Shown piece by piece: positions 4,725 to 47,937 of a stretch of 64,000 nt of DNA. Within the stretch, counting starts at the first letter, position 1. Every line of letters starts with the position of its first letter. The DNA comes from Haloplanus ruber (GTDB lineage Archaea > Halobacteriota > Halobacteria > Halobacteriales > Haloferacaceae). The DNA lies in NCBI RefSeq assembly GCF_024494725.1, contig NZ_JANHDK010000003.1, positions 1 to 64,000 of the forward strand. Reading direction: 5' to 3'. The notes below the pieces were generated by a model, which saw only the letters and a list, made by a program, of their open reading frames with translations, had not been told where the DNA came from and searched no databases. Made by a program: the position numbers and the translations under genes.

Positions 4725-5741
4725 ATGACAGACACGATGCGAGCGGCTGTCGTTCCCGAAGCGGGCGCCGACTTCGAAGTGGTCGAACGGGAGGTGCCGG
4801 AACCGGCACCAACCGAGGTACGCATCGACGTCGACGCCTGTGGCGTCTGTCACAGCGATGCCTTCGTCGTCGAGGGGGGCTTCCCCGGCGTGAGCTACCC
4901 CCGGGTTCCGGGTCACGAGGTGGTCGGTCAGGTCGACGCCGTCGGCGAGGACGTGACCGCTTGGGACGAGGGTGACCGCGTCGGCGCCGGATGGCACGGC
5001 GGCCACTGTTTCACCTGCGATCCCTGTCGTCGCGGCGACTTCCTCCAGTGTGAGAACGCCGAAATCACGGGGCTGACCTTCGACGGCGGCTACGCCGAGT
5101 ACACAACCGTCCCTGCCGAGGCGCTGGCGGCCGTTCCCGGCGATCTGTCGGCCGTCGACGCTGCGCCCCTCCTGTGTGCCGGTGTCACCACGTACAACGC
5201 GCTCCGAAACAGCGATGCACGTCCCGGTGACACCGTCGCGGTCGTCGGCGTCGGCGGCCTCGGTCACCTCGGTGTCCAGTATGCCCACGCCGCCGGCTTC
5301 GAGACCGTCGCCATCTCCCGAAGCCCCGAGAAACGCGAGTTGGCGCTCGACCTTGGCGCGGATCACTTCGTGAACGCGACCGAGCGCGACCCCGCCGAGG
5401 CGCTTCAGGAACTCGGCGGCGCCCGAGTCGTCCTCTCGACGGCCCCCTCCGCGGACGCCATCGAATCGGTCCTCGGCGGCATCGGCATCGACGGCGACGT
5501 CGTGATCGTCGGTATCCCCGGCGAACCGGTGCCAACGGACGTCCAGCATCTGGTCGCCACCTGTGGCTCCGTCTCCGGATGGGGTTCCGGACACGCCCGC
5601 GACTCCCAGGACACCCTCGAGTTCAGCTCTCTTCGTGAGATCACGCCAGTCGCCGAAACCTTCGATCTCGACGATGTCGGCGAGGCCTACGACCAGATGA
5701 TGGAAAACGAGGCTCGCTTCCGCGCCGTGCTCGATCTCTAG
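4725..5741 (+). CDS. Zinc-dependent alcohol dehydrogenase (MDR superfamily)
   Basis: A 338-residue medium-chain dehydrogenase. Catalytic zinc ligands are seen in CGVCHSD, the GHE motif and LLCAG; structural zinc ligands follow the C-x2-C-x2-C-x7-C pattern in CFTCDPC...C. The Rossmann motif is GVGGLGHLG. The second strand ends in SRSPEK rather than an acidic residue, which in related enzymes goes with NADP(H) preference. Substrate unknown; oxidation of primary alcohols or reduction of aldehydes is the family role. An upstream in-frame extension to 4086 runs through the kinase gene and was rejected; the ATG at 4725 gives the normal family N-terminus. Confidence 0.92.
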   Translation: MTDTMRAAVVPEAGADFEVVEREVPEPAPTEVRIDVDACGVCHSDAFVVEGGFPGVSYPRVPGHEVVGQVDAVGEDVTAWDEGDRVGAGWHGGHCFTCDPCRRGDFLQCENAEITGLTFDGGYAEYTTVPAEALAAVPGDLSAVDAAPLLCAGVTTYNALRNSDARPGDTVAVVGVGGLGHLGVQYAHAAGFETVAISRSPEKRELALDLGADHFVNATERDPAEALQELGGARVVLSTAPSADAIESVLGGIGIDGDVVIVGIPGEPVPTDVQHLVATCGSVSGWGSGHARDSQDTLEFSSLREITPVAETFDLDDVGEAYDQMMENEARFRAVLDL

Positions 5742-45941: not shown

Positions 45942-46814
45942 ATGGATTACGAATACTCCAGCAACGCCCACCGCGAACTCGTCGCGGCCTATCGAGCGGA
46001 CGAACCGCCGTTCCCGACGGACGACTCGCGGGTGTATCCACGCCGCGAGTTTCTGCGTGACGAGCCACTGCTTCTCAAGCAACTCCTCTTCCCGCGGTGT
46101 TGGAACGGGACGGCGCTGCTCGACGACCCCGACGAAACCCGAGGGCACCTGACCGCGCTCGGGACGTGTATGCGAAAAGGGATCGGCGCCTACTCGGGGC
46201 AGGACGGGGACGAACTAACCGAGACCGTCGACCGAACACTCGACCGATTGCCGACGATTCGGCGCGCCCTCAAGCAGGACGCCGAGGCCGCGTACAAGGG
46301 CGATCCCGCGGCGAAGAGCTACTGCGAGATCATCCGGTCGTATCCCGGCTTTCACGCCATCCTCACCCACCGCGTCGCACACGTACTCTACGAGGCCGAC
46401 CACCCGGAGTACGCGCGCGAACTCGCCGAATACTCCAAAACCGAGACCGGGATCGACATCCATCCCGGGGCGGAGATCGGCGAGTGTTTCTTCGTCGACC
46501 ACGGGACCGGCGTCGTCATCGGCGAGACTGCCACGGTCGGCGACTGGGTCCGGATCTACCAGAACGTGACGCTCGGCGCTCTCCACTTCGAGGAGAAGGA
46601 GGGTGCGGAACACATGCTGGCGAAGGATTACAAGCGCCACCCCGACATCGGCGATCACGTCGTCATCGGGGCCGGAAGTAACGTCCTCGGCCCGGTCGAG
46701 ATTGGCGACCACGTGAGTATCGGTGCGAACTCCTGGGTTACCGACGACATCCCGGACGATACGAGCGTCTTCGTCTCCGAACACCCCGAGCAAGAGCGGA
46801 AGCCGAACCACTAA
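45942..46814 (+). CDS. cysE: Serine O-acetyltransferase (EpsC/CysE type)
   Basis: A 290-residue protein with an N-terminal helical domain and a left-handed beta-helix carrying the SAT signature: GIDIHPGAEIGECFFVDHG, GVVIGETATVGDWVRIYQNV and TLGAL. The active-site histidines are those of YPGFHAI and VDHGTG. It makes O-acetylserine from serine and acetyl-CoA for cysteine synthesis. The ATG at 45942 is chosen because upstream codons are basic and lie in the AT-richer region. No cysteine synthase gene is next to it. Confidence 0.9.
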   Translation: MDYEYSSNAHRELVAAYRADEPPFPTDDSRVYPRREFLRDEPLLLKQLLFPRCWNGTALLDDPDETRGHLTALGTCMRKGIGAYSGQDGDELTETVDRTLDRLPTIRRALKQDAEAAYKGDPAAKSYCEIIRSYPGFHAILTHRVAHVLYEADHPEYARELAEYSKTETGIDIHPGAEIGECFFVDHGTGVVIGETATVGDWVRIYQNVTLGALHFEEKEGAEHMLAKDYKRHPDIGDHVVIGAGSNVLGPVEIGDHVSIGANSWVTDDIPDDTSVFVSEHPEQERKPNH

Positions 46815-46829
46815 TCGACGGTCGGTTGG

Positions 46830-47095
46830 GTCACACGGGCACAGAACGGGCGCAATCGCGGCCTCTGTGCCGGAGGCGGTACGGTCCGACGGACGCCGAT
46901 TGTGGGTTTCTCCGACGCCGAGCGTCGGCCACCCGGAACCTGATGCCCGGCCCCGTGAGCGTGTACGGACTCCGCCCCGGAAGCGGCCGAAGACGGCGCC
47001 GTGGGGGAACGGCGCCGAGCACCGAGGTGCCAGTGGGGTGTGCCGGGCGCGCGGGTGGGGAGGATGGGAACTGAAGCCGGTGGTGCGCGCCCGGT
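46830..47095 (-). ncRNA. Candidate structured noncoding RNA, about 260 nt
   Basis: No frame here has haloarchaeal coding composition, yet four perfect hairpins follow one another: 47094-47085 with 47052-47043 (10 pairs), 47017-47009 with 47002-46994 (9 pairs, six-base loop), 46928-46922 with 46918-46912 (7 pairs, three-base loop) and 46871-46864 with 46845-46838 (8 pairs). On the minus strand a TATA-like tatatttaag is centred 27 bases before 47095, exactly the base of the first stem. I could not match it to SRP RNA or RNase P RNA. The strand is inferred from the TATA box. Confidence 0.45.
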
Positions 47096-47116
47096 CCAAC
47101 AGTTGCTATCCCCCGA

Positions 47117-47126
47117 CTTAAATATA
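47117..47126 (-). promoter_or_regulatory. TATA-like box for the candidate RNA (works on either strand)
   Basis: The sequence cttaaatata (minus: tatatttaag) is the strongest AT box in this area. On the minus strand it would start transcription near 47095; on the plus strand near 47149, close to a GTG (47150) and an ATG (47155). Confidence 0.5.
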
Positions 47127-47295
47127 CGTCAGACGTTGACAGCGTCGTCGTGCGATGAGGGCCGTCGTTGGCGGCATCAGTACGGGGTGTGAACGCGCCA
47201 ACCGGCCCGCCTCGCTTTCGGCCGTGGCACGCGTTTCGACGGGTCCCCAACGGGTGGGGAGGAAGGCTTTTGCTCGCCGCGACGGAGGGTTCGGC

Positions 47296-47400
47296 GTGAC
47301 CTGGGACGACCTCTTCGGCCGCGCCGAACGATACGACCGGACCGAGGCGGACATACTCGACGCGCTCCGCCGGACGCGTGGTGACGATGCCGACGACTGA
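47296..47400 (+). CDS. 34-residue microprotein, leaderless GTG start
   Basis: Acidic, helical short protein (VTWDDLFGRAERYDRTEADILDALRRTRGDDADD, split here only as description) with typical haloarchaeal composition. A T-rich box (ggctttt, 47266-47271) lies 27 bases before the GTG at 47296. The frame is open further upstream to ATG 47155, which also has an AT box 30 bases before it, but those 47 residues are basic and unlike a haloarchaeal protein. Unknown function. Confidence 0.55.
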   Translation: MTWDDLFGRAERYDRTEADILDALRRTRGDDADD

Positions 47401-47451: not shown

Positions 47452-47937
47452 GTGACCGCCGACAGCCCACACGATCCGATGCCGACGCGGGTCGTCGCCG
47501 ACGCAGGCGTCCTCGCGGCGGACCTCCTCGTCGGCGACCCGTCGCGGGCGGCGCTGGACCGCGTCCGCGAACACTCGTGGATGACTCTCGTCGCCAGCGA
47601 GCCACTTCTCGACGACGCTGCGGCCGTCGTCGCCGACGTCGCGGACGACGCGCTGGCTCGCGACTGGCGCGCCCGCGCTCAGCGGGCCAGCGAACGCGTC
47701 GCCCATCCCGACGGTGACCACCCGGCGCTCGCGTCCGCCTACCGCGGCGGGGCGATGCACCTGCTCACCCTCGACGAGTCACTGCTGTCGGCGGCGGCCG
47801 GGGCGGCCGTCCGCGGCCGTGTCGAGACGAGCGTCAGGCACCCTCGGGCCTTTGCGACGCTGTTCGACGCCGCGAGCCTCCATCGGGAGGCCGTCGGCGG
47901 CGGGTATCCGGGGCCGGATCGGGACCCGCGGGGCTAG
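47452..47937 (+). CDS. PIN-like domain protein, haloarchaeal
   Basis: A 161-residue protein beginning TRVVADAGVLAADLLVGD, the acidic first strand of a PIN-type fold, and later LLTLDESLLSAAAG as in PIN domains. Not all PIN acidic residues can be placed, so RNase activity is uncertain. GTG start at 47452. Its TAG stop lies inside the palindrome ctag that also holds the stop of the convergent rdgB gene. Confidence 0.65.
   Translation: MTADSPHDPMPTRVVADAGVLAADLLVGDPSRAALDRVREHSWMTLVASEPLLDDAAAVVADVADDALARDWRARAQRASERVAHPDGDHPALASAYRGGAMHLLTLDESLLSAAAGAAVRGRVETSVRHPRAFATLFDAASLHREAVGGGYPGPDRDPRG

Follow-up and report, generated by a model that had tools for sequence, protein, structure and literature searches.

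A conserved haloarchaeal noncoding RNA gene beside cysE in Haloplanus ruber, with a predicted CdrS-type promoter

A 64,000-nt stretch of the Haloplanus ruber genome (hereafter the window) contains, next to cysE, a segment for which an earlier note made from the sequence alone had proposed a candidate structured noncoding RNA, transcribed from the minus strand, starting with the first of four perfect hairpins and preceded by a TATA-like box 27 bases before the base of the first stem. The note suggested searching Rfam and related haloarchaea, and looking for covarying base pairs. Is this segment a gene, has the RNA been seen before, and what could it do?

An RNA gene conserved across Halobacteria

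All four hairpins are present, at positions 47043-47052/47085-47094 (10 bp), 46994-47002/47009-47017 (9 bp), 46912-46918/46922-46928 (7 bp), and 46838-46845/46864-46871 (8 bp). By folding alone, this series, described as unusual, is at the chance level for GC-rich DNA: the 277-nt minus strand has z = -0.97, and 33 of 200 shuffled sequences fold at least as well. Unusual thermodynamic stability of the whole stretch was rejected as support, given these comparable shuffles. The region 46500-47400 matches no Rfam family at gathering or permissive thresholds, the best permissive hit, and the only one in the region, being CRISPR-DR20 with E = 2.3. SRP RNA, RNase P RNA, tRNA, and other Rfam families were ruled out, as none of them matched at the gathering score. 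With an ordinary fold and no answer from Rfam, cross-genome comparison had to decide the case, and it is this comparison that sets the segment apart from chance.

The suggested search of related haloarchaea revealed counterparts across Halobacteria. Twenty-seven of 60 related genomes, including all 11 congeners, matched a 371-base query; beyond Haloplanus, the similarity is limited to a core of approximately 62 nt. In an alignment of 26 loci, the GTCTGAC, TTTA, GGGCGCG, and CCC blocks are invariant, and the sequence between the TATA box and the stem is variable. A covariance model combining promoter and stem detected the RNA as a single copy in 266 of 391 Halobacteria genomes, belonging to 64 of the 86 genera; no matches to the RNA were found in 163 genomes from other classes of the phylum. 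In a search of 145 genomes with a model of the RNA only, extra matches at E > 0.01 were treated as noise. A strict pattern scan of 84,980 species returned 108 contigs, every one of them haloarchaeal, from Haloferax, Halorussus, Haladaptatus, Natronomonas, Halovenus, Natrinema, and other genera. The RNA model had no match in one genus represented by many genomes (g14), where the RNA may have become invisible to the model through divergence. At one locus of this genus (L259), a degenerate promoter (GTCTGACGCGGGTATA) and a possible remnant of the RNA persist beside a DUF7384 gene. Such breadth is exceptional, because 22 of 27 tested sRNAs of H. volcanii are restricted to that species (PMC3956466). 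A single-copy RNA whose stem covaries and whose promoter is fixed, kept in most genera of the class, likely matters to the cell.

The extent of the gene was estimated from 12 Haloplanus genomes. The promoter box is kept, conservation dips between the TATA box and the start, is nearly total from 47092 to approximately 46988, and stops near 46940. The predicted RNA gene occupies positions 46940-47092 of the minus strand; its 5' start is well supported, and its 3' end is approximate, being placed at the limit of Haloplanus conservation. Because of this profile, the first two of the four hairpins are real parts of the RNA. Both the 7-bp and the 8-bp hairpin fall beyond the conserved part and, showing no conservation in these 12 genomes, were rejected as parts of the RNA.

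Terminal stem, C-rich loop, and second hairpin

The RNA opens with a terminal stem of 8-10 bp (47085-47094 with 47043-47052, minus strand). Its 5' arm, GGGCGCGC, lies at 47085-47092, with pairing extending to 47094, and its 3' arm, GCGCGCCC, at 47045-47052, with pairing extending to 47043. An initial set of close sequences had no variation in the stem and hence was uninformative on covariation. In 97 diverse RNAs, compensatory changes are evident: five of the eight pairs are doubly changed and 99.1% of cells are paired, a result equaled by none of 500 shuffles, and none of six slid controls approaches it. The G-C pair at position 1 is replaced by A-U or U-A, G-C pairs 3, 5, and 7 by A-U, and C-G pair 4 by U-A. 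For many loci, the 5' arm was preset to GGGCGCG in the pattern search, so those rows could not vary; the rows that covary were obtained with the model and by similarity searches.

The stem encloses a large C-rich loop of 32 nt in the window (47053-47084, minus strand), its length across loci ranging from 14 to 57 nt with a median of 31. Over 137 RNAs, the 18 nt at the 3' end of the loop are on average 60% C and 5% G. The loop core, CCCAUCCUCCCC (47057-47068, minus strand), is recognized by two frequent motifs, CCTCC, present in 102 of 140 RNAs, and CCATCC, present in 132 of 140, some of the loci having been retrieved by a pattern that itself includes CCCATCC. The exact sequence CCCAUCCUCCC is retained by most genera; in one family (L181-L186, L205) the exact sequence is not kept, and the loop is merely C-rich with UCC/ACC units. 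A natural variant is seen in one genus (L258), where the stem is kept as GGACGCGC/GCGCGTCC and the loop has no C-rich core.

Downstream of the terminal stem, a short hairpin, GGCACCUCGGUGC (47019-47031, minus strand), is conserved in Haloplanus. The second hairpin, CGGCGCCGU-UCCCCC-ACGGCGCCG (46994-47017, minus strand), is confined to Haloferacaceae and is common to Haloplanus, Haloferax, Halobellus, and Halogeometricum, with loops UCCCCC, CCCCC, or CCACCA. Among 17 sequences, four of its nine pairs are doubly changed, with 8 of 500 shuffles as good on that count, and 91.1% of cells are paired, with none of 500 shuffles as good. A distal element, ACACGCUCACGGGGCCGGGCAUC (46942-46964, minus strand), is largely conserved among Haloplanus.

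Could the transcript instead encode a tiny protein? Some haloarchaeal sRNAs are known to be translated (PMC12482152). However, only five of 137 core RNAs contain an ATG, and ten an ATG or GTG, and conservation tracks base pairs, not codons; we give this reading almost no weight. The covarying stem, the rarity of ATG, and the class-wide promoter described below support the original claim of a structured noncoding RNA that starts with the first stem, and it is virtually certain that a real conserved noncoding RNA gene lies on the minus strand beside cysE.

The promoter and the relation to HVO_1885s

The upstream logo over 138 loci reads GTCnnnCGnnCGTCTGACGnrnTTTA, i.e., two direct-repeat boxes 11 bp apart and a nearly invariant TTTA. 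No conservation signal was seen over the same loci further upstream of the boxes or between the TATA box and the stem. Conservation of the boxes without that of their flanks is expected of a promoter, and not of a coding element or a 3'-UTR element. In the window, the TATA-like box noted on the minus strand, TATATTTAAG, is present at 47126-47117, the assignment of this TATA region resting on TTTA conservation and spacing. The distance between this box and the first stem is likewise conserved among loci: TTTA precedes the stem by 26 nt in 124 of 140 loci and by 25 or 27 nt in the remainder.

The boxes recur elsewhere in haloarchaeal genomes. The box-plus-TATA pattern occurs one to eight times per genome in 37 of 40 genomes, and the reversed control gave three matches in total; this enrichment identifies a shared regulatory motif. 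The same 18-bp motif is found immediately upstream of ftsZ1, as GTCAGACGAGCGTCTGAC in Haloferax and GTCGGACGAATGTCTGAC in Halorussus. CdrS, a ribbon-helix-helix regulator, was mapped by ChIP-seq to 18 sites in H. volcanii, including those of ftsZ1 and of HVO_1885s (Liao 2021, PMC8406309). The latter, annotated as 'RNA with unknown function', has a CdrS site at -41 from its start and is down by log2 -2.2 (4.6-fold) on CRISPRi repression of cdrS-ftsZ2 (PMC8406309).

Several observations connect HVO_1885s with the RNA described here. The names of 's' RNAs follow the neighbouring gene, as in HVO_2391s (PMC6490895), and HVO_1886-1888 encode an ABC transporter (PMC3402447). In Hfx. prahovense, the gene order is PBP_like_2, BPD_transp_1, and ABC_tran (binding protein, permease, and ATPase), the RNA at 4736, and a convergent TrkA gene, so that in Haloferax the RNA lies where HVO_1885s is expected, beside the counterparts of HVO_1886-1888. 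The CdrS-type half-site of the window, GTCTGACG (47127-47134, minus strand), defined by the logo, the motif enrichment, and the ftsZ1 match, spans -42 to -35 relative to the predicted start, close to the reported distance of about 41 nt; the tenth base of the 18-bp motif falls at approximately -44, and its alignment with the published motif, which is given only as a figure, could be off by a few bases. The motif is also that of a ChIP-proven CdrS target, ftsZ1, in both Haloferax and Halorussus. Based on the matching transporter synteny, the naming rule, and the CdrS-type site, the window RNA is very probably the orthologue of HVO_1885s, both being stand-alone genes. The RNA is absent from Rfam, but it is not wholly undescribed, given this annotated orthologue in Hfx. 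volcanii (PMC8406309). HVO_1885s was published without a structure, a family assignment, or an account of its conservation, and it is not among the 27 sRNAs deleted in an earlier study (PMC3956466).

To judge by its promoter sequence, the RNA is likely to be under CdrS-type control in Haloplanus too. Against this step stands the loss of the upstream half-site: located 11 bp further upstream in most genera, it is degenerate in the Haloplanus of the window. Through CdrS, the regulator of ftsZ1 and ftsZ2, a noncoding RNA would become part of the circuit of archaeal cell division.

Other copies of the motif were noted. In Halorussus, some were also seen in the vicinity of a CetZ gene and of a proteasome-alpha-like gene accompanied by a 61-aa acidic ORF (L232 and L235 among the loci). 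In the genome of the window, a site GTCTGACGTAGCTTTA (G000:C1:1481835-1481850) occurs upstream of a gene for a small coiled-coil DUF7518 protein, which is followed by an smc-like frame, and the sequence of the site recurs in several Haloplanus genomes; the DUF7518 gene is predicted to be a target of CdrS-type control. A decrease of an smc homologue on cdrS repression has been reported. A further site in this genome, GTCTGACGGGGCTTTA (G000:C4:201955-201970), is upstream of an orc1/cdc6 replication gene.

Possible mode of action and genomic neighbourhood

The best overall explanation, by analogy with known RNAs, is an sRNA that is activated by CdrS and acts in trans, its C-rich loop pairing with G-rich regions at translation starts; we consider the chance that it is correct to be about even. 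In this scenario, CdrS at the promoter would activate the stand-alone RNA gene. The terminal stem would fix both ends of a displayed single-stranded CCCAUCC(U)CCC loop, which could pair in trans with short G-rich segments around translation starts, either a Shine-Dalgarno GGAGG or a G-flanked AUG. Indeed, CCUCC of the loop is complementary to GGAGG, and CCCAUCC can pair with a G-flanked AUG. Several messages would be translated less as a result of pairing, which would make growth or division functions follow CdrS. In Haloferacaceae, the second C-loop hairpin may add a second pairing site. For the antisense action of the loop on translation, taken by itself, the arguments are evenly balanced. 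A more far-reaching scenario, which we put forward tentatively and with considerable doubt, is that this class-wide archaeal RNA family is a core CdrS output that globally tunes translation initiation by masking G-rich/AUG start regions, linking division to protein synthesis.

The closest parallel is provided by the 6C RNA (B11) of Actinobacteria, whose C-rich loops pair with G-tracts in 5' UTRs, as backed by compensatory mutation (PMC10470900). Both RNAs have hairpins with C-rich loops, one such hairpin being found in most haloarchaea and two in Haloferacaceae. However, they differ in phylum, stems, length, and promoter, and B11 carries its long C runs in two loops. Membership in the Rfam 6C family was rejected, as its covariance model gave no match; the haloarchaeal RNA is an analogue of 6C, not a member. 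Alphaproteobacterial CCUCC-motif RNAs of the cuckoo/CcsR group expose an anti-Shine-Dalgarno-like CCUCC in a loop. The haloarchaeal RNA shares this motif, but the hosts, gene context, and architecture are unrelated, and CCUCC is not universal in it.

A search for the 13-nt complement of the Haloplanus loop in 12 Haloplanus genomes found, besides the RNA gene itself, no recurring site at an evident conserved position, and a single conserved mRNA target of this kind was rejected for Haloplanus. Pairing of the loop with 16S rRNA was no better than that of shuffled loops, and this partner was rejected as well.

A serious rival to mRNA pairing is a protein partner: the C-rich loop may recognize or titrate a single-strand RNA-binding protein, or the RNA may be part of a ribonucleoprotein. 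We regard this as possible rather than probable. The sequence of the terminal stem hardly varies, although its pairs are free to covary, and Haloplanus has no conserved extended complement of the loop. The lack of CCUCC in 38 of 140 RNAs counts against pairing, and the family in which only C-rich UCC/ACC units are kept would also fit protein binding. On the other hand, there is no known protein partner, loops that are rich in C and poor in G are usual among RNAs that act by pairing, and most genera keep the exact CCCAUCCUCCC.

Two further explanations concern the locus itself rather than an RNA acting in trans. The RNA is oriented towards the 3' end of its neighbour, and could be a cis-acting antisense or 3'-end regulator of this convergent gene, which encodes TrkA in many genera, Haloferax included. 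This is improbable, since the neighbour changes (cysE in the window) while the RNA stays, and the conserved part stops near 46940, well before the cysE stop at 46814. Slightly less probable still is a regulatory DNA element or transcription start platform, through which CdrS would regulate the divergent gene, the short RNA being a by-product. In Haloplanus, there is such a gene behind the shared intergenic region (window 47296). However, the neighbour behind the promoter varies among genera, being an ABC transporter in Haloferax, upstream conservation is limited to the CdrS boxes, and conservation continues 3' of the start, with compensatory stem changes and a conserved loop core.

The divergent gene in the window (47296-47397, plus strand) starts with GTG and encodes a 34-aa microprotein, MTWDDLFGRAERYDRTEADIL..., which is present in other Haloplanus too and has no Pfam match. 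It is located just upstream of a gene for a DUF7384 protein (47452-47937, plus strand; E 1.9e-70), whose Haloferax orthologue also shows a weak match to the PIN domain.
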